Part shown: one piece after another, positions 2,551 through 48,374 of the stretch
Numbering within the stretch: the first letter of the stretch is position 1
How the letters are laid out: each line of letters opens with the position of its first letter
DNA from: Clostridium pasteurianum
GTDB lineage: Bacteria; Bacillota; Clostridia; Clostridiales; Clostridiaceae
DNA length: 64,000 nt
NCBI RefSeq assembly: GCF_001705235.1
Contig: NZ_MCGV01000001.1
Location: 3,600,181 to 3,664,180 of the forward strand
Direction: 5' to 3'
Program-made: the position numbers and the translations under genes
The notes under the pieces: generated by a model
Databases searched by the model: none
What the model was told of the DNA's origin: nothing
What the model saw: the letters and a program-made list of their open reading frames with translations, nothing else

Positions 2551-3360
2551 ATGGCAGTATTTTTTTTACTTTTAGGCCTTATACTATTATTTATAAATAT
2601 GATTATAGCTGTAATAGAGAAAATAAAAAGAAAAAAACTGGGCTATATGTATTGGAGTTTATTAACACTAGCTATTGCAATAGTAATTGTTAGTTTTATA
2701 GAAATACCTGTAAGGGAATATAATAGTGTACCTAAAGAGAGTAAAACTGTAAAGACAAGTGCTGTTAAATCGCATAAGGCTAAAATTATGAATTTATATA
2801 GTATGGAAAATGGTGAGAGTATAATAATACAATATGATAATAAAAATATACTAGTTGATATACCATCTTATGTGTCAAAGCCACAAGATAAGAATAACAT
2901 TTTTAATATACTCGATTCACATGGTATAAAAAAAGTAGATGTGCTTATTTTAACTTCAAATGATGAGAAAGCCGTAAATAATATATTAAGTGTAATTGGA
3001 AAATATAATATTAATAATATTATATATGCAGATTCATCAATCAAAGGAACAAAAATGGACAATGAGATAGTAAGCAATGTAAAAGCAATAAACGATGTAA
3101 AAAAGAGCAGCATATATCCCGCAGTAATGAATGATAAACAAAATATATATGATATGGATGTGGAAAATAAAAAAAGTGAAGATGGTACAGAATTAAATTT
3201 TAAGTTGCCTAAAAATGTTAAAGGAATCTTGGATTTAGATTCTTATGATTCAAATATCCATAATAGCAGTGTATATGATCACAAAATAAAGATTAGCTAT
3301 GATGTTGAAGGTTATATATCATTAAAAATAATTTCTAAGGTAGATGAAAATAAAGATTAA
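2551..3360 (+). CDS. Membrane-anchored metallo-beta-lactamase-like protein without metal site
   Basis: The 269-residue protein starts with two transmembrane helices (about 1-22 and 36-55), followed by an extracytoplasmic domain. That domain aligns by eye with the ComEC-type metallo-beta-lactamase fold encoded at 10452-11360. It shares the run from the first beta strand through GESIIIQ, then NILVDI, then KKVDVLILT and KYNINNIIYADSS. Where active family members have THPHEDH, this protein has TSNDEK (about residues 135-140), so the zinc ligands are gone. Likely role: a non-catalytic binding or structural protein at the membrane. The start chosen is ATG 2551, because GGGAAGGTG precedes it at a good distance; GTG 2542 is possible. 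Confidence 0.6.
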   Translation: MAVFFLLLGLILLFINMIIAVIEKIKRKKLGYMYWSLLTLAIAIVIVSFIEIPVREYNSVPKESKTVKTSAVKSHKAKIMNLYSMENGESIIIQYDNKNILVDIPSYVSKPQDKNNIFNILDSHGIKKVDVLILTSNDEKAVNNILSVIGKYNINNIIYADSSIKGTKMDNEIVSNVKAINDVKKSSIYPAVMNDKQNIYDMDVENKKSEDGTELNFKLPKNVKGILDLDSYDSNIHNSSVYDHKIKISYDVEGYISLKIISKVDENKD

Positions 3361-3368
3361 TATCCCAT

Positions 3369-3420
3369 AGGTTATATTTTAAATAAGTGTAGAAACATAC
3401 GCTTATTTAAAATATAACCT
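3369..3420. terminator. Long intrinsic-terminator-like hairpin
   Basis: A 22-bp nearly perfect inverted repeat (starting AGGTTATATTTTAAATAAG) around an 8-base loop lies just after the stop at 3360. It is symmetric enough to stop transcription in either direction. Confidence 0.7.
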
Positions 3421-18011: not shown

Positions 18012-19379
18012 TTATGATGCTATTTCATCGTTGCTAATTTTTGCATTTTTAGTTTTGCTTCTATATATACTTGTAAAGATGTAGCCACAAATAGTCCAAA
18101 TTAAAACTATATATGGGAATATGTTAGATGGAAAAGCTGGTACAGGATATACATTAGCGTAAAATGTATAAGCTAAAACTATTAAAGCTATTACTGGAAA
18201 TATAAGATTCTTATTTGTCCAAATTTTATTGCGCTTAAAGTATACTATTGAACCAAGACAAGTAACAAAATAGTTAATTATTAATGACAATGCACCAATA
18301 GTACCACAATATCCAAAGATAGTTGTACCCTCATTTTTAGATAAAAGAAGTACTAAAACAATTGTTACAACAAGCAATAAGGCTAATGATATATAAGGTG
18401 TCTGGTGTTTTTGATGTACTTTTGAAACTATTTTAGGAACATTTCCGTCTTGACTCATGGAATAAAGTAATCTACTTGCAGCAGCCATAGCACCAAGTCC
18501 AGCTGAAAAAGCAGATAATGATACTACAAAGGCTAATGCTCCTGTAAAGAATAATGGCATGTACATTTTTGATAAATCAGCAACACTAGATGCGGATTTT
18601 ATTAATGATGTAATACCTGCTTTTGAGCTGCCAAATCCTAATGCAATGGCATAACTTGTAAGTACGAAAAATAATCCTGATATAAGAACTGAGCTTGCTA
18701 TTGCTAGTGGAATTGTTTTTTTAGGATTTTTGCTTTCTTCTCCATAGCTTGAAGCACCTTCAAATCCAGCAAAGCATAATATTGCAAATACTATTGCTGC
18801 TCCAATACTTGAGAAACTATTATTGTTTGTCTTAAATGGAATTGCACTAAATCCTGTTTTGCTTATAACCACTATATCTAGAACTATAATTAAAAATATA
18901 GATGCAAATTCCAGTGCTAGCATTATTTTTGAACTTAGCTTTACATCGGAAAAACATAAATACCAACTTAATAATGCAGCTAATAAGGTATATGGAAGCC
19001 AGCCTATATTTATTCCTGTATAAGTTGCAATGAAGTCATTAAACATTGAACCAAATGCTGAAAGGCAGCCTGCTGGAAATATAGCATAAGTTAAATAAAG
19101 AGCCCAGCCTGATAAGCATCCTACCTTTTCACCAAGAGATTTTGTTGCAAAAGTATATATAGATCCTGCAGTTGAAAAGTACTGATTAAACTTTACAAAT
19201 GATACAGCAATGCATCCTAATAGTAATATAGAAATTAAGAATACTAAGCTTACAGAATATGAACATACACTTGCCATTAAAGGTACATTAAGAGCCATTG
19301 CTGCTGATGGGGCTATCATGGCTACTGGTAAAGCGACAACTTCTAGGTAGGTTAGTTCGTTTTGTCGTAGTTTTTCCAT
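18012..19379 (-). CDS. APC-superfamily amino acid permease
   Basis: 455 residues with about twelve transmembrane helices. The N-terminal helix contains the broken-helix motif typical of APC transporters (ALPVAMIAPSAAMAL). The later segment FAGFEGASSYGEESKNP is the conserved region after helix 6 in this family. It probably imports an amino acid by proton symport or exchanges it; the substrate cannot be read from sequence. The gene diverges from the GntR regulator gene with a 403-base gap. The regulator more likely serves the Etf/lactate operon. The hydrolase gene lies downstream on the same strand. Confidence 0.85.
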   Translation of the reverse strand: MEKLRQNELTYLEVVALPVAMIAPSAAMALNVPLMASVCSYSVSLVFLISILLLGCIAVSFVKFNQYFSTAGSIYTFATKSLGEKVGCLSGWALYLTYAIFPAGCLSAFGSMFNDFIATYTGINIGWLPYTLLAALLSWYLCFSDVKLSSKIMLALEFASIFLIIVLDIVVISKTGFSAIPFKTNNNSFSSIGAAIVFAILCFAGFEGASSYGEESKNPKKTIPLAIASSVLISGLFFVLTSYAIALGFGSSKAGITSLIKSASSVADLSKMYMPLFFTGALAFVVSLSAFSAGLGAMAAASRLLYSMSQDGNVPKIVSKVHQKHQTPYISLALLLVVTIVLVLLLSKNEGTTIFGYCGTIGALSLIINYFVTCLGSIVYFKRNKIWTNKNLIFPVIALIVLAYTFYANVYPVPAFPSNIFPYIVLIWTICGYIFTSIYRSKTKNAKISNDEIAS

Positions 19380-31939: not shown

Positions 31940-32027
31940 TGGTGCCGAAGGCGGGACTTGAACCCGCATGAGGTCACCCTCGACGGATTTTGAGTCCGTT
32001 GCGTCTGCCAATTTCACCACTTCGGCA
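31940..32027 (-). tRNA. tRNA-Leu (anticodon CAA)
   Basis: On the minus strand TGCCGAAG pairs with CTTCGGCA in the acceptor stem and CCA is encoded. The D-loop, a long class II variable arm (CGAGGGTGACCTCAT) and GGTTCAAGTCC in the T-arm are present. The anticodon loop CTCAAAA gives CAA, which reads UUG. Confidence 0.95.
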
Positions 32028-34277: not shown

Positions 34278-36446
34278 TCATTCACCTACACCTGATTCTT
34301 TAAAGCTGGATTCAAATTTTGAAATTATTCTGTTAAGAGGAATCTTAAAGAAGAAACCAAATAATATAAATACGGTTGAAATTAACATTAGTGCAGTAAT
34401 ATCAAGTACTACGCTTGTAGCAAGTGGACCTGCAATTGCCTCCCTAAAGCCTCCGACGCTGTAGGTAAAAGGCAGTAACGGTTGAATTACTCTAAAGAAC
34501 AGAGGGTCAACCTGTATAGGATAAGTAGAACCACTACCTGCAATTTGCACTATCAAAAATACTATGCTGACGGCTTTGCCTATGTTGCCTAGTACGGAAA
34601 CTAGTGAAAATACTATTATGGAAAAAGTGAGACCAGATATCAAGGCAAAAGCGATCAAAAGAAACGGATTTGCAGTATGTACATGCAAAAGCACTAAGTC
34701 ACCAACGGATACTATAAATGATTGTATGAGACTTAAAGTAATAAAAGTTAGCATTTTGCCAAAGTGCTTTTCACGCATGGATATTCCATCTGAGCCTTCA
34801 AAATGTACTGGCTTGCTTCTAAGTAAGGAACCTAATAGAAGAACTCCTACCCAGATTGCTAGTACTGTGTATACGGGTGCCATACCTGAACCGTAATTTG
34901 GTATGGTGTATATTGATTCATTTTTAACATTAAAAGGTGTAGAAATGAAATCACCCATAAAGTCAGGATTATTTTGCAGAACACTTATTATTTGAATTAT
35001 GTCATTGTTATTGGTATCTTCAAGTTTGTTACCTAAAGTTGAAATTATATCTTTAAACTGAAGTAGTCTATTTTTTAAATCGAGAGATACCTTACCGGAT
35101 AAATTACTACCATCTACTGCTGTTTTCAAAAGTCCATTTATTTCAGTATTTAAATTCTGTGCTGTGCCTATAAGAGATGCGGCATCACCTGTAGCATTAA
35201 TTAGGCTTTGGGCTGTAGAGTTTAAAGCTGATTTTGCACTATTATTATAAGTTTTATTTGTATTTATAAGCTGTGTGTTCATGGCAGCAGTATCATTATT
35301 TAATGAAGAAACTAGGCTTTGATTCAAATTATTTGAGCTTAAAAGCTGACTTTGGAGTTTACTTAAGTTTGATTTTTCATCACTTATGTAGTTCTGAACA
35401 TTTTTTAGTGATGCAATCATACTAGTTACAGATTCATTAGGCGATGTACTATTGATTTTCTGCAGAAAATCTATAACAGCGTTGGTGGAATTATTTAAGT
35501 TCTCTAACTCAGTGTTTAACTTTGATATATTAGAATAAATTAATGAAGAATTAGAAGAACTAAAATTTGTATTTAAGGTATTAACCAGTGTTTGAATTTT
35601 ATAAACTGATGCACTGGCGTTATTTAAATTAAGATCCATATTATTAAAAGAATTATTTAAAGTAGTTTGAGTTTCAGACAGAATATTTTTAGTATCCTCA
35701 TTGCTCTTGTAAATGGAATCTAGTCCATTATTTACACCTGGCATAGTAGCTTGAAGCTGTGTTAAAAAAGTGCTTAAGTTACTTGAATTATTATTTATGC
35801 TAGTAAGTGAGGTGAGGATAAAATCCATATTATTGTTGATATTTATTATATTGTTTTTCAGTTTTAATATGTTACTTTTATTTTTTTGAGCGTTGTTACC
35901 AACTTCATTTAATGAAGAAAATATAGTTTTATTTACAGTTGAAATAAATTCCGTAGTAATTGTATTTGTAAGTGTATCCTTAGCTGTTCCAGTAATTTTG
36001 CTAGATACAGGATTTAACTTAGTGTTTACTTTATATACAATTTGCGGCTTTTTAGGATTACTGCTAGTTATACTTGTAAAGCTTGATGTGAAATTTGGTG
36101 GAATTTCTATAACGGCATTATAGCTGCCATCAATAACACCCATATCTGCATTTTTAGAGTTTACGAATACCCAACCAATTTTATGATTTTTCTTTAAATT
36201 ACTTACGATTGATTTTCCAATATTTAAATTGCTGCCCCTAAAGGAGGCCCCTTTGTCATTATTTACAACAGCTACTGGAATTGTGCCTGTATTTTCATAT
36301 GTATTCCAGCAAGCTTTTATATTTATCCATGCGTATAGAGATGGTATTATACAGAGTCCTACTATAATAACCGTGGTTGGAAAATTTTTAAGAATGCTTT
36401 TCATGTCTCTTTTGTAGACTTTAAGAACGTTAAAAATATGTTTCAT
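34278..36446 (-). CDS. YhgE/Pip-family membrane protein, copy A
   Basis: 722 residues with the same architecture as the next gene: N-terminal helix with PSLYAWINIKACWNTYEN, a long Asn/Ser-rich extracellular coiled region (about 130-500), and a C-terminal membrane block with GSGSTYPIQVDPLFF and FTYSVGGFREAIAGP. The two proteins are clearly paralogues but differ through most of the extracellular part, as in proteins that make surface contacts. They probably act as a pair. Function unproven; phage adsorption and export roles are known or proposed for relatives. Confidence 0.8.
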   Translation of the reverse strand: MKHIFNVLKVYKRDMKSILKNFPTTVIIVGLCIIPSLYAWINIKACWNTYENTGTIPVAVVNNDKGASFRGSNLNIGKSIVSNLKKNHKIGWVFVNSKNADMGVIDGSYNAVIEIPPNFTSSFTSITSSNPKKPQIVYKVNTKLNPVSSKITGTAKDTLTNTITTEFISTVNKTIFSSLNEVGNNAQKNKSNILKLKNNIININNNMDFILTSLTSINNNSSNLSTFLTQLQATMPGVNNGLDSIYKSNEDTKNILSETQTTLNNSFNNMDLNLNNASASVYKIQTLVNTLNTNFSSSNSSLIYSNISKLNTELENLNNSTNAVIDFLQKINSTSPNESVTSMIASLKNVQNYISDEKSNLSKLQSQLLSSNNLNQSLVSSLNNDTAAMNTQLINTNKTYNNSAKSALNSTAQSLINATGDAASLIGTAQNLNTEINGLLKTAVDGSNLSGKVSLDLKNRLLQFKDIISTLGNKLEDTNNNDIIQIISVLQNNPDFMGDFISTPFNVKNESIYTIPNYGSGMAPVYTVLAIWVGVLLLGSLLRSKPVHFEGSDGISMREKHFGKMLTFITLSLIQSFIVSVGDLVLLHVHTANPFLLIAFALISGLTFSIIVFSLVSVLGNIGKAVSIVFLIVQIAGSGSTYPIQVDPLFFRVIQPLLPFTYSVGGFREAIAGPLATSVVLDITALMLISTVFILFGFFFKIPLNRIISKFESSFKESGVGE

Positions 36447-36644
36447 AAATACACTCCTCTGACTGTTATTGTATGCAATATAATAATTAAAAACTAGAAA
36501 AATTACTCAAATAACGCTCTAGATTAAGCAAGTAATGCTACCATATATAATTATATATTAATCACATTCTAAATAATTTTATCATATATAATAAATAATT
36601 TATAGTTAGATGTAAAATATTCTAAAACGTATTAAGACTAATAA

Positions 36645-36673
36645 TTGATTATATGACAATTTAATGTTATTAT
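36645..36673 (+). promoter_or_regulatory. Promoter upstream of the XrtG locus
   Basis: TTGATT and TATTAT are separated by 17 bases, 32 bases before the first gene of the exosortase cluster, and are followed by AGGAGG at 36692. This is the only good sigma-A-like match seen here. Confidence 0.45.
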
Positions 36674-36704
36674 GTAATTAATATAAAAAAATAGGAGGCC
36701 TTAA

Positions 36705-39698
36705 GTGAAATTTAAGGGATATATTTATAAATTTAAGTTAAATGCCTCCCATAGTGTTTTAATTGATAACGTAAGGGGAAATGTCCATTCTCATACTTTT
36801 ATTATTATAATGCACATTAAGATAGCTAGCAGTGATTTTGTTCTTTATAATGATGTGGAGAAAGTAATAATTGATTATTTAAAAAAGTATGAAGAAAAAG
36901 AACTAAATAAAATAGAACCATTTGATGAGATAGAACCTACTTTGGAAAATATAGGCAATTTTTTATTTGATGAAATTCAAAAGATACTTTCCGCAAAAAG
37001 TATTGAACTTACTAAACTAGAAATAAGTGAAACTCCTGCTAGAGTGTATATTGTAAATGCACAGAATAAAAAGCAGGAGGAGGAATATAATGTTAAAATA
37101 AGAAAACTTTTATTAAATAGTCTTATTAATTCATGTGCAGAGGATTTGTTAAACAAATATAAGGGTTCTAAGGATAAAGTAAAAAAACAAAAAGCTGTAG
37201 TTCCTGTGAAAAGGATACTAAAAGAAAAAGAAATAGAAGAATATCATGAAAACGTTGAAGGAGAAGATTCAGTAGAAATCATTAAAGAATATAAAGTATT
37301 GCCTAAAGCTTTAATTTCAATGTTTTTTTTACTTTTAATTTCAGTGCTGCTTACGTTATATTTGAAAAATTTAGGAGGGTACCCGTGGGGAATAGATACC
37401 TATGGGCATATATTTAAAGCTGATTTTTTATATAAAAGTATAAAAAGTGGGAATTTATATCCACTATTAACTAAGTATTGGTATAATGGCATACAACCTT
37501 TTAGGTACTGGGCGCCTCTCACATACTACATACTAGCGGCATTCCAGTTTGCTTCCGGCGGAGATGCTATTAATGCTTATTTTATTTTTGTAATATTTGT
37601 ATTTCTAATAGGAGCCATGGGGTGGCTCATGTGGGGTATAGGGGGGAAAAATGTATATACAGCCTTGATTTTGGGTATAGTATGGTTCTTTTTACCTGAA
37701 AATTTGAAGGTGCTTTTCTTTGAAGGGAATATTCCGAGAGTTGTTATAACAGCTTTATTGCCTTATCTATTTTACTTCTTGTGGGATTTCGTTGAATATG
37801 GCAAGAAGTGGTCAATATTACTAATGAGTTTTTTTATGGTGCTCATAACCATGACTCATTTGATGATAGCTGCAATGTTAGGTGTAGCATCATTCATATT
37901 TTTATTCATCTATTCAATTTTATTTAAGAAATTTTTAAGATCTATGCGTGTAATAGCAGCTATGCTTTTATCTTATGCTATTTGTGGCATATGGCTTTAT
38001 CCAGCGCTTAAGGGTGGACTTGCATCTATGGACAGCGGTGCTACGTCTGAGGTTATGAAATTTTTTAGTGCGAAATTCACTTTAGCATTAAATCCTTTTT
38101 TAAGAGTAATAAATGCCAATAAAAATGGTCTATTTTATTATGGAATATCTATATTTGTAGTTGCTATTTTGGGTGTGTTTCTTTCGAAGAAAAAAAGTTT
38201 ACCTGGGTTTATAACTTCATTAATTATATTTTTTGGAAGTACCACTGCGTTTTTGCCAATAATATCAAAATTACCTTTAAATCAGCTTTTTTGGATGATA
38301 CGATTTACACCTATAGCTTATGCCTTATTTGTTATAAGTATTTTAAACTGGAAAAGCTGCAAAGTATGGTTTAAGACTGTAATTTTGATTTTTATAATAG
38401 CTGACAGTGCATTATCTTTCAATTTTAAGCTTTATCCAGAGGGGAAAAGTTACAGTACTGCAAAAGAACTTAAAATAGCTAAAAATATAACAAATCAAAG
38501 GATTTCACTATTAGATGATAGCACTTATCAGTCTTATGCTTCATATTATATATGTAGTACTGGTAAAGAAGTACCCTATTCTTACGGATGGGCATGGCAG
38601 GGTGCTTCAACTGCACAGAATATAGTTTTACTAAACACAGCACTTGAAAATGGCTATTACAAGTATATGTTTGATAGATCACTTGAAATGGGGTGTGATA
38701 CGGTACTTGTAAGGAAATCGGTCCTTAAGTATAATAAAAAAAATTTTAACAGTATAAACATAGGTGCAAAACTTTCGGGGTACAGTTTGTACAGTGAAGA
38801 TGATGATAGTTATGTATTTCATAGAAAAACCCCTAAAAATTTTGGAGTTATTACGAAATATTATGGGCTATGCCTAGGAAAAAATTCAAGTGATATTCCT
38901 CTTCAATATCCATCATTTAAGCTTGGAGATTCGTGTAATATTGAGGACTATTCTTTGAAGGATTTAATGAAATATAAAGTCATTTATTTATCTGGATTTT
39001 CGTACAATAATAGAAAAGCAGCGGAAAAAATGCTTACTGCTTTAAGCAAAAGTGGAGTTAAGGTTATCGTAGATATGAATAAAATACCTATAGATCCTAT
39101 AATAAATCGTATGACCCTTCTTGGAGTAAATGCTGAACCAATAACGTTTAATAATAAAATGCCTAACTTGTTTTTTAAAGGGCAAAAGTACAAACCATCG
39201 GTGGAATTTAATGAGAAATATAAAAAATGGAGCACCGTATATCTGGGGAAAGTTCCTGAAGTAATCGGATTTTCATGGATTAACGATAGAAAGATTCCCT
39301 TTTTAGGGAAAGGAAATGGAAATAATAAGAATGTATATTTTATAGGTTTTAACTTAATGTTCAATGGTATGGAAAATGAAGATACAAAATCAATAGATAT
39401 TATGAATTCTGTAATGGGGACAGAACTTTTAAATCCTCCTCAAAGAAACATAGTACCACTAGATGTGAAGTATTATAAGAATTTGATAAAGATAAAATCT
39501 CCTAAAAATAATGTAAATACAACTCTTGCATTTTTGGACGCTTACAAAGGAGATAAAGGGATATATAAAGATCAGAATCTTTTAAATGTGGTAAAAAAGG
39601 GCGAGACTAATATTTCTATAACTTATCCATATTTAATTCAGGGAGCAGTATTATCAATACTTGGGCTAATTGGATTAGTTATACTTATAATTTTATAG
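36705..39698 (+). CDS. Pterin-synthase-like domain fused to GT-C-like membrane protein (XrtG locus)
   Basis: 997 residues. Residues 1-125 resemble 6-pyruvoyl-tetrahydropterin synthase/QueD, with zinc-type His at 16 (NASH), 28 and 30 (VHSH) and the Glu of SETPA (109). The catalytic Cys normally near the second His pair is missing. After a charged linker come about ten membrane helices from residue 203. The first outer loop reads GIDTYGHIFKADF, a D-xxx-H pattern like GT-C glycosyltransferases. This is the membrane family named for its pterin-synthase-related domain. An outer domain (about 660-960) and a last helix end the protein. The start is GTG with AGGAGG before it. It opens the XrtG locus and may add or flip a sugar; this is inference. 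Confidence 0.75.
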   Translation: MKFKGYIYKFKLNASHSVLIDNVRGNVHSHTFIIIMHIKIASSDFVLYNDVEKVIIDYLKKYEEKELNKIEPFDEIEPTLENIGNFLFDEIQKILSAKSIELTKLEISETPARVYIVNAQNKKQEEEYNVKIRKLLLNSLINSCAEDLLNKYKGSKDKVKKQKAVVPVKRILKEKEIEEYHENVEGEDSVEIIKEYKVLPKALISMFFLLLISVLLTLYLKNLGGYPWGIDTYGHIFKADFLYKSIKSGNLYPLLTKYWYNGIQPFRYWAPLTYYILAAFQFASGGDAINAYFIFVIFVFLIGAMGWLMWGIGGKNVYTALILGIVWFFLPENLKVLFFEGNIPRVVITALLPYLFYFLWDFVEYGKKWSILLMSFFMVLITMTHLMIAAMLGVASFIFLFIYSILFKKFLRSMRVIAAMLLSYAICGIWLYPALKGGLASMDSGATSEVMKFFSAKFTLALNPFLRVINANKNGLFYYGISIFVVAILGVFLSKKKSLPGFITSLIIFFGSTTAFLPIISKLPLNQLFWMIRFTPIAYALFVISILNWKSCKVWFKTVILIFIIADSALSFNFKLYPEGKSYSTAKELKIAKNITNQRISLLDDSTYQSYASYYICSTGKEVPYSYGWAWQGASTAQNIVLLNTALENGYYKYMFDRSLEMGCDTVLVRKSVLKYNKKNFNSINIGAKLSGYSLYSEDDDSYVFHRKTPKNFGVITKYYGLCLGKNSSDIPLQYPSFKLGDSCNIEDYSLKDLMKYKVIYLSGFSYNNRKAAEKMLTALSKSGVKVIVDMNKIPIDPIINRMTLLGVNAEPITFNNKMPNLFFKGQKYKPSVEFNEKYKKWSTVYLGKVPEVIGFSWINDRKIPFLGKGNGNNKNVYFIGFNLMFNGMENEDTKSIDIMNSVMGTELLNPPQRNIVPLDVKYYKNLIKIKSPKNNVNTTLAFLDAYKGDKGIYKDQNLLNVVKKGETNISITYPYLIQGAVLSILGLIGLVILIIL

Positions 39699-39798
39699 AA
39701 TATTTGTAATTTAAACAAGTTTATAAGAAACAAATTCTGAAAAGCTCAATATTATGATTTCTAATGCAAGAACCTATATAGGGGAAGGGTGAATTATA

Positions 39799-40437
39799 GT
39801 GAAAAAGTTACTAAAAGATTGTTTTTTTGTATGTATAATTATTTGCATTATGTTTCCTATGAATACTTTGGCGGCTCAAAATGGAGTAACACTTGATGGA
39901 TATTTTGATGATTGGAATGGCAAGCCGGTAACATATTTAAGATATACAAGTGTAGCAACGGAGCAGGTTCACAGTGTTAGGCAGTGTACTGATAGTTCAA
40001 ATTTATATCTTAATATAAAAATGGGAACTAAAGGTGGTCAGAGACTAGATAGATATGTTATAGAATGCTCTATGAGTAATGGACAAATGAAACATTTTCA
40101 AATTGCACCTGATGAGCCTAAAGTTGGACGTGTTACGATTTATGATATGGATGGAGGATATAGGGCTGTATCGCAGGACGGCTATGTTGTACGTGGAAAT
40201 AATAATGATGGCAAAACTAGTGATCAAGCTGAGTTTAGAATACCTTTAAGTGAATTTCAAAGTGGAAACTCAATGGGGATTTCTAATGTAACACTTAAAA
40301 TCCCAGATTTAGGTGATAGATGTGTTGTATTTCAAACAGGAAGCACAGGACCATATGTTGGTGTTATATTGTGCGGTATTGTAGCTGCAGCAGGAGCATT
40401 TCTTTCTCTGCATAGAAGAATAAAGGCTCAGGCATGA
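39799..40437 (+). CDS. Secreted XrtG substrate with Firmicu-CTERM-like sorting tail
   Basis: 212 residues. A signal peptide (about 1-26, ending TLAAQ) is followed by a beta-rich domain that opens VTLDGYFDDWNG, a hallmark of Firmicute exosortase substrates. The C-terminus is a tripartite sorting tail: GSTGPYVG (181-188), a hydrophobic helix (189-204) and basic HRRIKAQA. The exosortase gene overlaps its stop by four bases (ATGA). XrtG should cut near the tail and attach the protein to a carrier or cell-surface glycan. It is the only such substrate in this window. The start is GTG with GGGAAGGGTGA upstream. Confidence 0.8.
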   Translation: MKKLLKDCFFVCIIICIMFPMNTLAAQNGVTLDGYFDDWNGKPVTYLRYTSVATEQVHSVRQCTDSSNLYLNIKMGTKGGQRLDRYVIECSMSNGQMKHFQIAPDEPKVGRVTIYDMDGGYRAVSQDGYVVRGNNNDGKTSDQAEFRIPLSEFQSGNSMGISNVTLKIPDLGDRCVVFQTGSTGPYVGVILCGIVAAAGAFLSLHRRIKAQA

Positions 40438-41030
40438 AGATAATTTTAATTATACTTTTTATTATATGGGTATACATTGTATCGGTTTTAATGAGGGCAA
40501 AATTGTACTTTTTTAAATTTTTAATAGGTTCTGTAGGAGCATTCTTTTTTCTACTTGTATTCCTCCAGCAGTATGTAATAGGAGTTTTAACAACATCTTT
40601 AACAGCAGTCTGTGGGGTTATTGGAGATTTAACCGGATATTTTAAAGCTTACTATGAATATGCGCTTATATTTATATCAACGGCTGATTCAAGTGTTTCC
40701 ATGTATATAGATTATGAATGCTCCGGTGTTATAGAGATATTTGCTTTTGCTGCTCTCTTATGGTTTTTTCCACTATATAATGTGTTAGAGAAAATAATGT
40801 ATAACATAATTGGAGTGCTTTGGATATTTATGGCGAATGTTTTAAGAGTTCTTATAATATGTGTTATAGTGCATCATTATGGAGACAGTATGTTTTATTT
40901 TGCACACACTATATTTGGAAGAATTGTATTCTATGTACTTTCTATAATTTTATATTTTTATGTGTTTACAAAGTCACAGATAAAAAGGCAGAAGGTAGGT
41001 AATGTTTCGTATGAATATGCTTCTAAGTAA
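40434..41030 (+). CDS. xrtG: Gram-positive exosortase XrtG
   Basis: 198 residues, nearly all membrane helices. The exosortase/archaeosortase catalytic residues are in place: Cys96 in YECSG, Arg138 in ANVLRV and His158 in FAHT, with R163 nearby. Exosortases are transpeptidase-like enzymes that process C-terminal sorting tails, usually beside exopolysaccharide genes. The short XrtG class belongs to Firmicutes and travels with a family 2 glycosyltransferase and pterin-synthase-like proteins, exactly as here. It overlaps the substrate gene by four bases and the glycosyltransferase gene by 29 bases, which points to tight coupling. Confidence 0.88.
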   Translation: MKIILIILFIIWVYIVSVLMRAKLYFFKFLIGSVGAFFFLLVFLQQYVIGVLTTSLTAVCGVIGDLTGYFKAYYEYALIFISTADSSVSMYIDYECSGVIEIFAFAALLWFFPLYNVLEKIMYNIIGVLWIFMANVLRVLIICVIVHHYGDSMFYFAHTIFGRIVFYVLSIILYFYVFTKSQIKRQKVGNVSYEYASK

Positions 41031-42381
41031 GAGCTTAAAAGAAATAATTTCATGGATGGCATGGATTATAATACCTTTTATTATGGAGATAATACCGGCA
41101 ATTGGAGGATTTTTTATTCTTGTAAGAAAAGCTTTTGATGTGAATAGTAAAGATAAATTTGTTGGTAAGCTGCCTCAAATTACAGTGATTATACCTGTAT
41201 ATAATTCAGAAGATACTTTGAGAGGATGTATTAAATCTATATATGATTCAAATTATCCAGTAGAGCTTATTGATTTAATTTTGGTTAATAACATGAGCAG
41301 CGATAATAGCTTTGGAGTTTTCTGTCAGTGCCAGAAAGAGTTTAAGGATCTTTCTATGAGATATATGAATGCAAAGCAGGGGAAATCAAAGGCACTTAAT
41401 ATGGCTCTTTTTAACAGCGAGGGCAAATATATAATTCACATTGATAGTGATGGAAAGCTTCATCCTGATGCCATAAGGAATATAGTAGTTCGCTTTGAAA
41501 ATAATCCTGATATACACTGCATGACGGGAGCAATTTTGAGTGATATTCACAGCATAGAAAAAACCGAGGGAAAACTTTTAAGACTTGTAAGGCGATGCGA
41601 ATTTTATGAATATGCATCAGCATTTTTAGCAGGAAGAAACTTCGAATCGGAATTAAATAGCATTTATACTCTTTCAGGTGCATTTTCAACTTTTAGAAAG
41701 TCTACAATATTGAAAACTCAACTTTATAACAGTAAAACCGTTTGTGAGGATACACATATAACTTTTCAGGTAAGAAAGTTTTTAAAACAAAAGGTTTATT
41801 TATGTGAGAATGCATTGTTTTTTGTAGATCCATTAGATGACATGGATAAACTTTATACCCAGAGGCAGAGGTGGCAGAGAGGTGAGCTTGAGGTTTCGCA
41901 TATGTTTCTTCAAGATAAAATGGTGGCATCCATTGGCTTTGTTGGTAACTTCATGATAAGAGTACTTATGTATGATCATACTTTTGCTTTTCCTAGAATG
42001 ATATGGTACTTTGCAATAATATTTCTCTTTTTCATGGGTTATCCACCAAATTTGATTTGTAGCTCCATGGGAATGATATATGTACTATATGTTCTGTCTG
42101 CATTTTTGTTTTTTCTTAATGTAAGATCATACCTTAAAGAGTACAAAAATATTAGGAAGTACTATACTTCTAAATGGTACTATATATTTTTACTTCCTTT
42201 ATATAATTTCGTTATATTTTGGATAAGGTTTGCTGGAATTATAAACAGCATAAAGATTCAAAGTCAGTGGAAAACCTTAAACATACATGAGGAATATGCA
42301 GCATTTTTAAAGGTTGTTAAATCGGATTTTAAAATGGTAGTGTTAAAAATAAAAAAAATAAGGCGTTTGGTGAATAATTAA
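41002..42381 (+). CDS. XrtG-associated family 2 processive glycosyltransferase
   Basis: 459 residues. One or two N-terminal helices lead to a GT-A catalytic domain with TVIIPVYNSE (61-70), the metal-binding IDSDG (147-151), the acceptor-site EDTH and the QRQRW motif near 290. At least three C-terminal membrane helices follow. QxxRW together with this topology indicates a processive synthase of the hyaluronan/cellulose/poly-GlcNAc type that also extrudes its product. It starts inside the end of xrtG, with AGGTAGGT just before the ATG, and its stop overlaps the next start. It probably makes the polymer or lipid-linked glycan to which the XrtG substrate is joined. Confidence 0.85.
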   Translation: MFRMNMLLSKSLKEIISWMAWIIIPFIMEIIPAIGGFFILVRKAFDVNSKDKFVGKLPQITVIIPVYNSEDTLRGCIKSIYDSNYPVELIDLILVNNMSSDNSFGVFCQCQKEFKDLSMRYMNAKQGKSKALNMALFNSEGKYIIHIDSDGKLHPDAIRNIVVRFENNPDIHCMTGAILSDIHSIEKTEGKLLRLVRRCEFYEYASAFLAGRNFESELNSIYTLSGAFSTFRKSTILKTQLYNSKTVCEDTHITFQVRKFLKQKVYLCENALFFVDPLDDMDKLYTQRQRWQRGELEVSHMFLQDKMVASIGFVGNFMIRVLMYDHTFAFPRMIWYFAIIFLFFMGYPPNLICSSMGMIYVLYVLSAFLFFLNVRSYLKEYKNIRKYYTSKWYYIFLLPLYNFVIFWIRFAGIINSIKIQSQWKTLNIHEEYAAFLKVVKSDFKMVVLKIKKIRRLVNN

Positions 42382-43556
42382 TGAAAGATAAAGAGCAGAA
42401 AAAATTTGTAATAAAAATGTTTATACTATTTATGGCCAATGTAATTACTATTTTTACGCTGTGGTATGCGGCAGCGTATGAACTAAATAACAATAAGAGA
42501 AATGTTATAAATGCTTTTATGCAACAGCAGTATTTAATGACTAATAGATTCAGCGGTAGAGTTCAAGCAGAACTTGAAAAATATATTAATGAAGGAAAGC
42601 TATCTTATGATGATGCAGGAAAAAAAGTTGCTCAGGATATAATTAAAAAGGAAACTAACTCTAAAAATAATTACATGTTTTTATATGACGATAAAGGTGT
42701 AATTTTTGAGCGAAATGATTCAGTAACCTCAAAGTATAAAAATATGAGCATTAAAAATCTTTTTCATACCTGGGAATATAATGGTGGCAAAAACTTTGAT
42801 AATATGAAAGAGCTGGTTTTAAACCGTGAAAGCGGAAGCGACGAGGTTATAAAGGATAACTCAATTGGAAGGGAAATTGTTTCCTGGTGTTCTTTTAAGG
42901 TTAAGAATAAGAATTATATTTTAGGGATTTCTGTTTCGGAAAATTATTTAATTGAAGAGACCTTACTTAATCAGCATGATACCAGGATAATTATATTTGC
43001 TGCTATATTAACAGCTATTTTAATTATAATATCTACTGCATTTTTGCTTCATATGTATTTTACTTTTAAAAAAGTAGTTAATATGGAGAAAATCATAACG
43101 GAAAAGAATATTCAGATAGAGAAGTTTATATCAAAATTATCTAAAATGGAAAGCAATTTTAAAAAAGCCAGCATATATGATTCTACTACAGGAGCATACA
43201 ATATGGAGTTCTTTTATAGTATTATAAGAAAAATAGACATACCGCTTTTTTTACCTATAGTAGTGATTTTGGCTCAAATAGAAAATATTCATGATATAGA
43301 TAAGATGCTTGGACGTGAAAAAACAGACAAATTTTTAAATGGCTTAGTTAAAATTTTTATGGAAAAGGGTATGGTTTCAAGAATTGCGTACAACAAATTT
43401 GCTATTTTAAAAGTTAATGGGGATAAAAAGGTAGCAGGTGGAATTATAGATTATATAAAATCTAAAATGAATAATTATGATTTCATATGCAGTGTATCTT
43501 TTAAGCTTTTAGTAAAAAATGAAGAAAACGATGATTTAAAAGTGGAGGTGGATTAA
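42381..43556 (+). CDS. XrtG-locus membrane sensor with degenerate GGDEF domain
   Basis: 391 residues. A membrane helix (about 12-30), an extracytoplasmic sensor-like domain of about 175 residues (FLYDDKGVIFERND recalls Cache/PAS folds), a second helix (about 203-223), a coiled linker and a GGDEF-like domain. The GGDEF motif itself is replaced by AYNKF after MVSRI, and other catalytic positions are weak. It should not make c-di-GMP but could bind nucleotide or partner protein. The ATG overlaps the preceding stop (TAATG). It probably controls polymer synthesis or sorting in the locus. Confidence 0.75.
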   Translation: MKDKEQKKFVIKMFILFMANVITIFTLWYAAAYELNNNKRNVINAFMQQQYLMTNRFSGRVQAELEKYINEGKLSYDDAGKKVAQDIIKKETNSKNNYMFLYDDKGVIFERNDSVTSKYKNMSIKNLFHTWEYNGGKNFDNMKELVLNRESGSDEVIKDNSIGREIVSWCSFKVKNKNYILGISVSENYLIEETLLNQHDTRIIIFAAILTAILIIISTAFLLHMYFTFKKVVNMEKIITEKNIQIEKFISKLSKMESNFKKASIYDSTTGAYNMEFFYSIIRKIDIPLFLPIVVILAQIENIHDIDKMLGREKTDKFLNGLVKIFMEKGMVSRIAYNKFAILKVNGDKKVAGGIIDYIKSKMNNYDFICSVSFKLLVKNEENDDLKVEVD

Positions 43557-43557
43557 A

Positions 43558-44028
43558 TTGAAATATGATGAATATAGATTTAAATTTTATCTTAATGCCT
43601 CTCATTCTATATACATAAAAGGTGTACTTGGAGAGGAACATCCACACACTTGGGAAATTATAATAGATACCATAAAGCTTACAAGTGGATTTATTATTTT
43701 TAATGATGTGGAAAAGTATATCGAAAAATACATGGATAAGTATCAGGATTCTTATATTAATAGTATAGAGCCGTTTACAACATTAAATCCTACATTAGAG
43801 AACATTTGCAGCTATTTTAAAGATGATATACAAAGATTACTCATAGAGCTAGGGTGGATTTTAGTTTCTATAGAGATAAGTGAAACCCCTACACGATCAT
43901 ATATTATAGATTTATCAAATAGAGTAAGTACTAAGAGGGATTTAATGGTTTTGAATTCAAAGAAAGAAGATATTATAAATTCAAGTGCAAATGAAAAATT
44001 AATAGAATTTGAGAAAAAAATAGGGTGA
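43558..44028 (+). CDS. Free pterin-synthase-like protein of the XrtG locus
   Basis: 156 residues. It aligns without gaps over 110 residues with the N-terminal domain of the protein encoded at 36705. His16, His28, His30 and Glu109 are at identical positions (NASH, EHPH, SETPT). The blocks FNDVEK and NPTLENI also match. The zinc site seems kept, while the catalytic Cys of true QueD/PTPS enzymes is absent. It is therefore a paralogue of the fused domain and may pair with it. The start is TTG, with GGAGGTGG before it, one base after the previous stop. Confidence 0.8.
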   Translation: MKYDEYRFKFYLNASHSIYIKGVLGEEHPHTWEIIIDTIKLTSGFIIFNDVEKYIEKYMDKYQDSYINSIEPFTTLNPTLENICSYFKDDIQRLLIELGWILVSIEISETPTRSYIIDLSNRVSTKRDLMVLNSKKEDIINSSANEKLIEFEKKIG

Positions 44029-44032
44029 TATA

Positions 44033-44596
44033 ATGAATTGCAAAAAGGTTGTAGTTTTTCTTAACATTTTACTATTGTTAATTTTCAGTGGATGCGGTAA
44101 TAAAGTGCATATGCAGGGCGCTAGTAATAAAAATACCTCTTCTAAGTCTAAAATAGATCCAGTGGATAAATTTTTAAGTAAACAGAAGTTTAATGTTTCA
44201 AATAATTCAGATAAACAAGCAATAGTATATGTGTATTTCCCTGATGGATCCAGGGGAAAATTAAAAAGTTATACTGTTAATAATTCTGGAAGTATGAATA
44301 TAAAATGTAGAGTTAATCAAAGATTTATTATATCGCTGCATGAAAGCAGTGTTATTTTCGCCGAATGGAGTATACAGAATAATATTGATAATTCAAGTTT
44401 AATACTTTTAAAGAAAACAAAATTGTCGGTTCCGTTTAAAAATCCAAAGAAGCTAATTGGAATAAATTATGATAGGAAAAATTTCTATTTTATGCCACTA
44501 AAGAAGGGGCCTCAGGATATTATTTTGAGTTATGTTAGTAAGAACTCTTCCCATAAGCAATATTTTAATATTACTGTTAATGTAACAGCAGATTAA
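44033..44596 (+). CDS. Lipoprotein of the XrtG locus
   Basis: 187 residues with a lipoprotein signal ending FSGC (Cys21), so it is anchored outside the membrane. The rest is a Lys/Ser/Asn-rich linker and a beta-rich domain with no family I recognise. The gene starts four bases after the preceding stop with AGGGTGATA, so it belongs to the same operon. A long terminator directly after it closes the cluster. It may assist the surface assembly steps; this is inferred only from its position. Confidence 0.7.
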   Translation: MNCKKVVVFLNILLLLIFSGCGNKVHMQGASNKNTSSKSKIDPVDKFLSKQKFNVSNNSDKQAIVYVYFPDGSRGKLKSYTVNNSGSMNIKCRVNQRFIISLHESSVIFAEWSIQNNIDNSSLILLKKTKLSVPFKNPKKLIGINYDRKNFYFMPLKKGPQDIILSYVSKNSSHKQYFNITVNVTAD

Positions 44597-44598
44597 TT

Positions 44599-44661
44599 AA
44601 TAACACAAATAAAAAATTGCAGCGTTTCACATATTCCCTGCAATTTTTTATTTGTGTTATT
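44599..44661. terminator. Terminator closing the XrtG locus
   Basis: A perfect 24-bp stem (beginning AATAACACAAATAAAAAATT) with a 15-base loop lies three bases after the lipoprotein stop. It marks the operon end. Confidence 0.9.
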
Positions 44662-44688
44662 ATATACAATGGGGGTGGTAAATTTTAT

Positions 44689-45909
44689 ATGGAAACTCTT
44701 TTAAAGGCATATAAAGGTTTGCCAAAGGAAATTTACATAATATTTATATCGAGAATAATAAACTCTATGGGAAATTTCGTATTTCCACTTATGACTCTTA
44801 TACTTACAGTTAAAATGGGTTTTAGTGCCGTTGCGGCAGGTACCTTTTTAACTGTAATGTTTTTGACTAAGGGGCCATGTATTATAATTGGTGGGAAAAT
44901 TATAGATTCTGTTGGGAGAAGAAAAACAATAATTATATTTCAAAGTATAGGAGCTTTTAGTTATTTTATATGTGCTTTTTTGAAGCCCAATATATTTATG
45001 GCAATTTTAATAATGATTACTTCAAGCTTATATGCAATTGCGGCACCAGCTTTTGATTCAATAGTTGGAGATATAACTACAGATAAGAATAGAAAGCAGT
45101 CTTTTTCTTTAGTTTATATGGGATGCAATATCGGGTATGCAGCTGGACCCGTTATGGCTGGAATACTTTTTAATAGATTTTTTCCTTTGATATTTATAGT
45201 GGATAGTTTTACTACAGTGGCATCAATTGTTATTTTCATATTTTATATAAAAGAAACCCTAGTAGTCAATAAAAAAGAAGAAATTCATGAAACTTATAAA
45301 AGAAATTCAATTTTTTCTGTAATTAAAGAAAATAAAATAGTTATGTGCTTTGCAGTCATTATGTTTACCTATCAATTTGCCTATGCACAGTGGAGTTTTA
45401 TACTGCCAATTCAAATGAAACACATGTTTTCGTCTAATGGAGCATTTATATACACTTTACTTGCTGCATTAAATGGACTAGTAGTGATTTTATTTACTCC
45501 TATTGTTACACATAAGCTTAGTAGTAAGAATTCTTTATTTGTAATCTCAATTTCAGGATTTGTATATGCTAGTGTGTTTTTTTCCTTTGGAATGTTTAAA
45601 AGCGTTTATCCATATTTTGGTTCCATGTTTATTATGACTTTGGGTGAAATAGCCATTGCTATAAATGACAGTTCTTTTATAGCGAAAAATACCTTAAATA
45701 GCAACCGTGGAAGGATAAATTCTTTAGTTATGATTACTAGCGATTCTGGCTATGCAGTTGGACCTATCATAATGGGAGGTGTTTTAACTAGATTTGGTTA
45801 TACATACAGTTGGACTGCGGTTTCAATTTTAAATATCATAGGAGCAGTAAGTATGTTTTTATTATTTAGAAAAACAAGTGATTGGAGATGCATAAGAAAT
45901 GCACGATAA
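44689..45909 (+). CDS. MFS transporter (drug/sugar efflux type)
   Basis: 406 residues with twelve predicted helices. The first cytoplasmic loop reads GGKIIDSVGRRKT, the classical major facilitator motif between helices 2 and 3. The substrate is unknown; the length and short loops fit the DHA1-like efflux group. ATG 44689 follows GGGGGTGG; upstream in-frame starts would lie in the terminator and are rejected. Its last 11 bases overlap the mnmM gene, so the two share a transcript without an obvious functional link. Confidence 0.82.
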   Translation: METLLKAYKGLPKEIYIIFISRIINSMGNFVFPLMTLILTVKMGFSAVAAGTFLTVMFLTKGPCIIIGGKIIDSVGRRKTIIIFQSIGAFSYFICAFLKPNIFMAILIMITSSLYAIAAPAFDSIVGDITTDKNRKQSFSLVYMGCNIGYAAGPVMAGILFNRFFPLIFIVDSFTTVASIVIFIFYIKETLVVNKKEEIHETYKRNSIFSVIKENKIVMCFAVIMFTYQFAYAQWSFILPIQMKHMFSSNGAFIYTLLAALNGLVVILFTPIVTHKLSSKNSLFVISISGFVYASVFFSFGMFKSVYPYFGSMFIMTLGEIAIAINDSSFIAKNTLNSNRGRINSLVMITSDSGYAVGPIIMGGVLTRFGYTYSWTAVSILNIIGAVSMFLLFRKTSDWRCIRNAR

Positions 45910-46657: not shown

Positions 46658-47350
46658 ATGATTTATTCAGCAGAAGTTGACAGAATGATGTGTGTAGCAA
46701 AAGGACCAAATCATGGACCAGCTCCAATACCAGAAGAAGGAAAATGGGTACAAGCTAAAGAAATAAAAGATATATCAGGATTAACACACGGAATTGGTTG
46801 GTGTGCTCCACAACAGGGTGGTTGTAAATTAACTTTAAATGTTAAAGAGGGCGTAATTGAAGAAGCTTTAGTAGAAACAATAGGATGTTCAGGAATGACT
46901 CATTCAGCTGCTATGGCATCAGAAATACTTCCAGGAAAAACTATCCTTGAAGCATTAAATACTGACCTTGTTTGTGATGCTATAAATGTTGCTATGAGAC
47001 AATTATTCTTACAGATAGTTTATGGAAGATCTCAGACTGCATTTTCAGAAGGTGGACTTCCAGTAGGCGCAGGTCTTGAAGATTTAGGAAAAGGACTTAG
47101 AAGCCAGGTTGGTACTATGTACGGAACTAAAGCTAAGGGAACTAGATATCTTGAAATGACTGAGGGATATGTTAATCACATAGCTCTTGATAAGAATAAT
47201 GAAGTTATAGGATATGAATTCATTAGCCTTGGAAAAATGATGGAATTCATCAAAAAGGGCGTAGAACCTGCTGAAGCTCTTAAAAAATCAACAGGTACAT
47301 ATGGAAGATATAAAGAAGCTGCAAAAATTATAGATCCAAGACAAGAATAA
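46658..47350 (+). CDS. NifU-like iron-sulfur cluster scaffold protein
   Basis: 230 residues. The protein resembles the IscU/NifU scaffold fold, with Cys in GIGWCAPQQGGCKL and in ETIGCSGMTH and a third in DLVCDAI. It is much longer than IscU and has a C-terminal extension. It forms a conserved pair with the next gene in many clostridia, usually labelled iron-sulfur assembly scaffold. A cluster-binding or assembly role is inferred from the cysteines. GGAGATA precedes the ATG. Codon use favours A/T-ending, strongly translated codons, suggesting high expression. Confidence 0.75.
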   Translation: MIYSAEVDRMMCVAKGPNHGPAPIPEEGKWVQAKEIKDISGLTHGIGWCAPQQGGCKLTLNVKEGVIEEALVETIGCSGMTHSAAMASEILPGKTILEALNTDLVCDAINVAMRQLFLQIVYGRSQTAFSEGGLPVGAGLEDLGKGLRSQVGTMYGTKAKGTRYLEMTEGYVNHIALDKNNEVIGYEFISLGKMMEFIKKGVEPAEALKKSTGTYGRYKEAAKIIDPRQE

Positions 47351-47372
47351 GAGATAGGAGGAAAAGATTGAT

Positions 47373-48374
47373 ATGGCATTATTTGAAAGTTATGAAAGAA
47401 GAATAGATCAGATTTTACCTGTACTTAAGAAATATGGTATGAATTCATTAGAAGAAGCTAAAGCTGTTTGCGACGAAAAAGGAGTAGACGCTTATAATAT
47501 AGTTAAAGGAGTTCAGCCAATTTGCTTTGAAAATGCATGTTGGGCTTACACAGTTGGAGCTGCTATAGCAATTAAAAAGGGTTGCAAAAAAGCTACTGAG
47601 GCTGCTGAAGCTATCGGAGAAGGATTACAGTCATTTTGTATCCCTGGTTCTGTTGCAGATGACAGAAAAGTTGGACTTGGACACGGAAATTTAGCTGCAA
47701 TGCTTTTAAAAGAAGAAACTGATTGTTTCGCATTCTTAGCTGGACATGAATCATTTGCAGCTGCTGAAGGTGCAATTGGACTTGCTAACTCAGCTAACAA
47801 AGCAAGAAAGAAACCATTAAGAGTTATATTAAACGGTCTTGGAAAAGATGCTGCATTTATAATCTCAAGAATTAATGGATTCACTTATGTTCAAACTAAA
47901 TTTGACTATTATACAGGAAAACTTAACATAGTTAAGGAAACTGCATATTCAGATGGAGATAGAGCAAAGGTTAGATGTTACGGAGCAGATGACGTTAGAG
48001 AAGGTGTTGCTATAATGCACCATGAAGGCGTTGATGTATCTATAACTGGAAACTCAACTAACCCAACAAGATTCCAGCATCCAGTTGCAGGAACTTATAA
48101 GAAAGAATGTATTGCTCAAGGAAAGAAATACTTCTCAGTTGCATCAGGTGGTGGTACTGGAAGAACACTTCACCCAGATAACATGGGAGCAGGTCCTGCT
48201 TCATATGGTATGACTGATACTATGGGAAGAATGCATTCAGATGCTCAATTCGCAGGTTCATCATCAGTTCCAGCTCATGTTGAAATGATGGGATTAATCG
48301 GAATGGGTAACAACCCAATGGTTGGAGCAAGTGTTGCTGTTGCCGTTGCAGTTGAAGAAGCTATGAATAAATAG
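47373..48374 (+). CDS. GGGtGRT-family protein
   Basis: 333 residues, named for the block ASGGGTGRTLHPDNMG (about 252-267), which is present here. The family is conserved in anaerobes and is found next to the NifU-like scaffold, as in this window (23 bases apart). No reaction is established. Cysteines at AVCDEKG, QPICFENACW and QSFCIPG could hold a metal or cluster together with the scaffold partner. There is no signal or membrane segment. TAGGAGG precedes the ATG by 13 bases. A good terminator follows, so the pair is a two-gene operon. Confidence 0.85.
   Translation: MALFESYERRIDQILPVLKKYGMNSLEEAKAVCDEKGVDAYNIVKGVQPICFENACWAYTVGAAIAIKKGCKKATEAAEAIGEGLQSFCIPGSVADDRKVGLGHGNLAAMLLKEETDCFAFLAGHESFAAAEGAIGLANSANKARKKPLRVILNGLGKDAAFIISRINGFTYVQTKFDYYTGKLNIVKETAYSDGDRAKVRCYGADDVREGVAIMHHEGVDVSITGNSTNPTRFQHPVAGTYKKECIAQGKKYFSVASGGGTGRTLHPDNMGAGPASYGMTDTMGRMHSDAQFAGSSSVPAHVEMMGLIGMGNNPMVGASVAVAVAVEEAMNK

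Follow-up and report, generated by a model that had tools for sequence, protein, structure and literature searches.

The window analysed here is the whole stretch of 64,000 nucleotides from Clostridium pasteurianum, taken from a 4.68-Mb genome in two contigs, and the system in question is a locus built around the Gram-positive exosortase XrtG. Positions 36705-44596 of the plus strand carry seven consecutive open reading frames (ORFs), which lie where the original prediction had placed them and are spaced by +100, -4, -29, -1, +1, and +4 bases. Their order from 5' to 3', as given by the ORFs and family matches, is a T-fold fused to a membrane GT-C glycosyltransferase (P-C), an exosortase substrate (S), XrtG (X), a glycosyltransferase of family 2 (GT2; here G), a membrane sensor (D), a second T-fold (P), and a lipoprotein. 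Five kinds of product (the T-fold/GT-C fusion, the Firmicu-CTERM protein, XrtG, the GT2, and the second T-fold) score above curated NCBIfam or Pfam cut-offs, and all four families that the original prediction had proposed to search for (XrtG, Firmicu-CTERM, GT2, and pterin-related) are thereby found. The genome encodes a single exosortase above cut-off and a single Firmicu-CTERM (TIGR04145) protein, adjoining XrtG, together with two TIGR03112 domains; the description of a complete, self-contained locus with one substrate thus holds. Within the already known family of XrtG loci, this one is complete and ordinary.

XrtG itself (40434-41030, plus strand; 198 residues) matches TIGR03110 with 245.6 bits (cut-off 102.75), so that the outcome which would have spoken against the prediction, a 198-residue protein without an exosortase match, was not found. 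Its Cys96 (40719-40721), Arg138, and His158, which we take to be the exosortase catalytic residues, are identical in 80 of 80 aligned rows, three of which are the window's own sequence. The adjacent GT2 (41002-42381, plus strand) matches the XrtG-associated family TIGR03111 with 728.3 bits (cut-off 363.95) and carries D101, D148xD150, ED250, and QRQRW (residues 287-291), motifs to which we presumptively assign the roles known from processive synthases. Across 78 rows, window copies included, D101, D148, D150, D250, and QRQRW are identical and E249 is kept in 99%; because of this conservation, G looks processive, as had been predicted.

The substrate (39799-40437, plus strand; 212 residues) matches TIGR04145 with 93.1 bits (cut-off 50) and consists of a secretion signal, a single domain, and a sorting tail. 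The tripartite tail (40336-40434) is made up of TGSTGP (residues 180-185), a hydrophobic helix, and the basic HRRIK, confirming the one tailed substrate that had been proposed; P185 is nearly invariant in 20 aligned S proteins. The tail pattern [STV][TSP]G[PA] matches 52 of 83 tails, and many of the misses are one-residue differences (STYP, STAP) or ends longer than the 50 residues inspected. An AlphaFold2 model built from 20 sequences (mean pLDDT 85.1) is rich in beta structure, with ten strands and a C-terminal helix at residues 184-211; the domain, a probable beta-sandwich, begins with DGYFDDW, resembling carbohydrate-binding module family 9 (CBM9). Aligned with hhalign to CBM9 domains from 13 of 20 loci (L133, L139, L141, and L143 were left out for an unclear frame or partial domain, and L135, L144, and L145 were also left out), S scored 94.4% over 49 columns around DGYFDDW; seven controls (reversed or shuffled S and unrelated families) scored 0.06-0.54%. 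S is therefore probably CBM9-like, despite the miss of the Pfam CBM9_1 profile discussed below, and it may bind sugar. The long S proteins of some relatives carry up to four CBM9-like motifs. A profile search of S against PDB gave, as all its matches at E<=10, 1i82 (0.045), the interleukin-10 receptor 6x93 (0.61), and the beta-xylanase 7nwn (1.8), which alone are not evidence. The window S matches no Pfam family, and weak matches of single S members to unrelated Pfam families were set aside as chance.

P-C (36705-39698, plus strand) carries at residues 6-118 a T-fold like that of the pterin synthase PTPS (TIGR03112, 149.9 bits, cut-off 69.35), N-terminal to a multi-spanning region that matches PF10131 with 767 bits (cut-off 26.4). 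PF10131 belongs to the GT-C clan (PMC7801869; this and the other articles cited by accession are represented here by excerpts), which bears out the GT-C-like membrane protein of the original prediction. The second, stand-alone T-fold (43558-44028, plus strand) matches TIGR03112 with 162.9 bits, and the PTPS family PF01242 matches both (E 1.6e-14 and 1.9e-15). Both score under the PTPS and QueD cut-offs (TIGR03367, TIGR00039). A PDB search with the window's stand-alone P alone gave no match, and a profile of 28 sequences matches solved PTPS; catalytic positions were placed by alignment to the latter. In 121 aligned rows the three presumed zinc histidines are kept in 120, 119, and 119, and Glu81 in all 121; what we take to be the PTPS catalytic Cys position is mostly K, R, Q, or L in these rows, and the presumed Asp-His pair is mostly replaced by Q-N or Q-D. 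P thus appears to be a zinc T-fold lacking PTPS catalysis; the two "pterin-synthase-like modules" predicted have the fold and its zinc histidines but lack the catalytic residues.

D (42381-43556, plus strand) appears to be a membrane sensor with a Cache-like outer part and a degenerate GGDEF domain. The window sequence alone stays under every Pfam threshold (sCache_2 E=0.0086, GGDEF E=0.039); a profile of 27 aligned members matches the diguanylate cyclase 8c05 (E=8.8e-5). According to the alignment, AYNKF stands in the place of GGDEF and the RxxD I-site is absent, so the window D has neither hallmark of a diguanylate cyclase or of an I-site receptor of cyclic di-GMP (c-di-GMP), and the prediction of a degenerate sensor is upheld.

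To describe the conserved gene set, every ORF in 78 XrtG loci, which came from one scan of named genomes, was searched with profiles built on the window proteins; 57 of these loci, the window included, are fully flanked, meaning that 4 kb or more precedes XrtG and 6.5 kb or more follows it. All 57 combine P, S, X, G, and C, and 55 have D. G lies directly 3' of X in 75 of 75 loci, and S directly 5' of X in 58 of 65 and at most three genes away in all 65; the most frequent orders are P-S-X-G-D-P-C (23 loci) and S-X-G-D-P-C (15 loci). Leaner loci are found in the bacterial family of the window: L091, L099, and L102 have no D, L101 lacks C as well, and L103 consists of P, X, and G only. Sampling of this family found XrtG in 12 of 194 genomes, and sampling of the phylum gave a match in 11 of 299. 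Within the family, Firmicu-CTERM proteins occur in ten of the 12 XrtG genomes versus none of the 182 others, and one genome (G025) has three of each. A broader S profile adds an S in G142, which leaves G080 as the only one of the 12 without S.

Several of these genes are naturally fused, and each fusion suggests, at the level of gene architecture, contact between the parts joined. The P-C fusion of the window recurs in L002, L003, L016, L092, L093, L096, L097, and L098. In seven loci (L010, L011, L015, L018, L030, L055, and L100) D is fused at its C-terminus to P, with the T-fold replacing the GGDEF part. Three loci (L121, L122, L123) encode P-C-S as a single chain of 1287-1300 residues, followed by a normal, Cys-bearing X; the S part is weak with the first profile but plain in the sequence, and in G309 a profile match confirms it (E=1.5e-9). 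In 13 loci G carries a C-terminal OpgB/LtaS-like domain (946-994 residues in total). The one such fusion scanned (L025) matches phosphoglycerol transferase I with 165 bits, against a cut-off of 572, and has LtaS (4uoo) among its PDB matches, a hint that the species concerned may decorate the chain with phosphoglycerol. A frame of 482 residues running from XrtG into the GT2 (L126, 9085-10533), in which X lacks its end and G its start, is probably a deletion remnant or an assembly fault.

S is also found fused to X. In the class around the genome G208, XrtG occurs in 14 of 63 genomes, at 15 places: at nine of these, S and X form a fusion of about 400 residues (one cut by a contig end), and none of the nine retains the Cys (eight have Asn, one Ser); the other six are unfused and all retain it. 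G270 holds a tenth Cys-less S-X fusion, also with Asn. The fused S has no tail helix of its own: GDIQWAPFP at its end is followed immediately by helix 1 of X, and at this point the unfused counterpart has GDIQWSPIP, a helix, and KKRR. The fusion in G208 lies in a single-contig genome, which argues against an assembly error. Over 110 rows, the Cys is retained in 97 of 98 unfused versus two of 12 fused XrtG proteins; this count leaves out the duplicates L094, L095, L125, L147, L148, and L150 as well as L001, keeps near copies (such as L003/L096), and includes three rows read by eye (L022, L102, and L103; two of them among the 97). The ten Cys-less fusions form a single clade (SH-aLRT 95), in which X and G persist beside one another. 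The sole unfused X without the Cys, in L103, shows C to A, R to K, and H to F in the alignment and still exceeds the XrtG cut-off (111 vs. 102.75 bits). Its source, G080, is 96% complete, and searches of it found neither S nor a PF10131 protein; run on five further genomes, the same searches detected S in each and PF10131 in four. Together, the Cys-less clade and L103 indicate that the reaction was lost twice, by different routes, with X staying beside G and P.

From the families, the conserved gene set and order, the fusions, and the residue losses, all of which were computed directly, we infer a physical complex, to which we give an even chance: a single membrane glycan synthase whose dedicated, probably sugar-binding CBM9-like subunit would be matured and tethered by XrtG, with cleavage no longer required once S is fused. 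In such a complex G would build a chain from a nucleotide sugar and pass it outward, and C would add sugars on the outside from a polyprenyl-phosphate donor. S would be the outer, probably glycan-binding subunit; X would trim the tail of its one dedicated substrate, leaving S at the membrane beside G and C, and would also be a structural neighbor of G. In the cytosol, P may act as a coupler or ligand sensor connecting the sensor D to C; donor, product, and regulation are all conjectural in this scheme. The core of the argument is that, if S were meant for the cell wall or for a remote glycan, its fusion to X or C should abolish the function; the rest of the operon persists in such loci, and the simplest reading is therefore that S acts at the synthase, held there by X. 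The GT-C side also resembles multi-component transmembrane glycosylation systems, for whose GT-C enzymes a review has proposed separate sugar-binding partners (PMC8035078), and in some related loci there are small GT2s that resemble polyprenyl-phosphate-sugar synthases, as well as an ArnF-like flippase (70.4 bits against a cut-off of 99). More tentatively, and short of what we would call probable, XrtG could be primarily a structural part of a glycan synthase and only secondarily a protease: sitting in the membrane, it would hold a dedicated sugar-binding subunit at the GT2, with cutting serving only to seat S and being lost once S is welded to X (one clade) or gone (G080, L103). The catalytically dead "pseudo-exosortases" would then be working parts, and the T-fold would have been recruited from pterin chemistry to couple, in the cytosol, a membrane sensor to the GT-C.

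It should be noted that a number of observations weigh against the synthase-complex reading. The ten Cys-less fusions, forming one clade, represent one evolutionary event, and two other S-X fusions (L055 and L069, both from metagenome assemblies) retain the Cys. No GT-C was detectable in G118, and neither GT-C nor S in G080, so that neither C nor S is needed in every case. The match of S to CBM9 covers its first 49 columns only, and Pfam CBM9_1 matches neither the window S nor, apart from one member at E=0.066, any of the 20 S proteins. The window G scores 115.8 bits with the poly-GlcNAc synthase model PgaC (TIGR03937), against a cut-off of 422.3. Finally, none of the seven window genes encodes a polyprenyl-phosphate-sugar synthase or a flippase.

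The original prediction had named attachment of a surface protein to a glycan as one possibility; in this reading XrtG would act as a transpeptidase, cleaving S and linking its new C-terminus to a lipid-linked glycan that G and C produce, which would leave S glycan-anchored on the surface. The conserved tripartite tail and the Cys, Arg, and His present in the window are in keeping with this, the substrates of the archaeosortase ArtA are lipid-anchored at their processed C-terminus (PMC7157517), and a recent paper suggests that exosortases may be transpeptidases (PMC11980579). However, the Cys is gone in ten of 12 S-X fusions with X and G kept, and in the P-C-S chains S would still be tied to the GT-C after removal of its tail. 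We thus regard anchoring to a glycan as unlikely, and of the prediction's two possibilities it is the glycan-making machine that survives as the best reading. Protein glycosylation is another candidate: a small GT2 and the GT-C would glycosylate S or other surface proteins, XrtG merely anchoring S. PgfS is linked to surface-protein glycosylation, and a CsbB/PgfS-like GT2 adjoins P-C in L003 (PgfS, 236 bits, cut-off 500); the GT-C families include protein O-mannosyltransferases (PMC7801869). Nevertheless, the GT2 that is invariant in the locus carries motifs of the synthase type, no PgfS-like gene is present in the window operon, and the OpgB-like domain fused to the GT2 speaks for a polymer; we consider this account quite improbable. 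Matches to small GT2s occur in 24 of 102 loci, where the weak ones near 33-60 bits may be any GT2.

We also weighed an exopolysaccharide synthase under c-di-GMP control, of the Bcs/Pss/gts type, with D as the c-di-GMP receptor. A precedent exists in Lactobacillus acidophilus, where c-di-GMP is bound by a degenerate EAL protein whose gene accompanies that of a BcsA-like GT2, and where GtsA/GtsB increase exopolysaccharide when placed in Escherichia coli (PMC6123363). Moreover, L003 carries two c-di-GMP-II riboswitches (3312-3395, 54.9 bits; 18598-18681, 69.1 bits; threshold 53.5), the first lying about 3 kb upstream of P-C and followed on one strand by a methyl-accepting chemotaxis protein gene, the PgfS/CsbB-like GT2, and the XrtG operon. 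Against this, D has lost both the GGDEF and RxxD I-site motifs, a T-fold replaces the GGDEF part in the seven D-P loci, and no riboswitch was found in the window or in 13 of the 14 related loci searched, L096 included, a near copy of L003 without a match at threshold; we consider this scheme very improbable. Riboswitch control of the window operon was likewise rejected, as no Rfam match lies nearby and L003 alone of the 14 related loci has matches, which stand as no more than a lead.

The closest known system is the XrtG/Firmicu-CTERM system as defined by TIGR03110, TIGR04145, TIGR03111, and TIGR03112, from which the window shows no difference at the family level: all four models are above cut-off and the gene order is that of its relatives. 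The names of these models are purely comparative. In the open-access literature searched, outside which most subscription papers fall, one experimental mention of the system turned up among the papers listed, its higher expression in aggregating strains of Lactiplantibacillus plantarum (PMC12854382), and neither the Cys-less XrtG nor the S-X, D-P, and P-C-S fusions were found described; within that scope we consider these fusions new. XrtG shares with the exosortase EpsH (PEP-CTERM system) and with ArtA the fold family, the Cys, Arg, and His, and the tripartite C-terminal tail of the substrate, but it is a half-size enzyme (198 residues) with one substrate encoded next to it, not many. The multi-component transmembrane glycosylation systems CsbB-GtcA-YfhO and GtlA-GtcA-GtlB likewise use a GT-C transferase, and some XrtG loci add a polyprenyl-phosphate-sugar synthase-like GT2 and an ArnE/F-like flippase; the window operon, in contrast, has neither of these and has in addition a processive-type GT2, an exosortase, and T-folds. 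BcsA-BcsB, PgaC-PgaD, OpgH, and Listeria Pss are comparable in their membrane GT2 with D, DxD, ED, and QxxRW, and in the OpgB/LtaS-like domain of the 13 loci; the window system differs in having no PilZ and, as accessory subunits, an exosortase and its substrate. Beyond the HMM scores, the relations of G to Bcs, Opg, and Pss are general background. The L. acidophilus gts operon similarly combines a BcsA/PgaC-like GT2, a membrane partner, and a degenerate signaling domain with an effect on exopolysaccharide, but the text describing it makes no mention of an exosortase (PMC6123363).

The S-X fusions that have lost the Cys lead to a pointed and testable proposal on the purpose of exosortases in Gram-positive bacteria. 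They would also point to a synthase built with an exosortase fold as partner of the GT2 and a zinc T-fold that couples the signal; if this is true, other exosortase-associated exopolysaccharide loci may merit re-reading as synthase complexes instead of sorting systems.

The lipoprotein gene (44033-44596, plus strand) is present as predicted and encodes a chagasin/I42-like, accessory protein (27.0 bits, just under the I42 cut-off of 27.2). It was found in one of the 57 fully flanked loci, the window itself, and a phmmer search over the collected loci (E<=10) returned only the query; it is outside the conserved gene set and does not stand as a component of the system. The terminator had been given as 24 bp; a perfect inverted repeat is indeed present, one base longer at 25 bp (44598-44622/44638-44662, strand unassigned; RNA fold -29.3 kcal/mol), and is a probable terminator, although a terminator consensus scan did not list it. 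The promoter proposed upstream of the operon did not stand out, with 56 promoter-like sites in 36300-44800 versus 53.7 expected from shuffles.

Among neighboring genes in related loci, a GH3 hydrolase (nine loci) and a UDP-GlcNAc 2-epimerase (four loci) were judged to be mere neighbors and not parts of the system. In L004-L007 a UDP-GlcNAc 2-epimerase-like cluster (one member scanned) adjoins the operon, with an extra small GT2. ORFs of about 740 residues lie directly downstream of the XrtG operon in L041 (15983-18160) and, as relatives, in eight loci, and have no Pfam match. In the window, positions 46658-48374 encode, in succession, a weakly NifU/IscU-like protein (24.3 bits, far under cut-off) and a 333-residue protein that has no NCBIfam match and carries a GGGTGRT motif. 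On the minus strand, a tRNA gene lies at 31943-32026 and a YhgE/Pip family membrane protein is encoded at 34278-36446, divergent from the operon.

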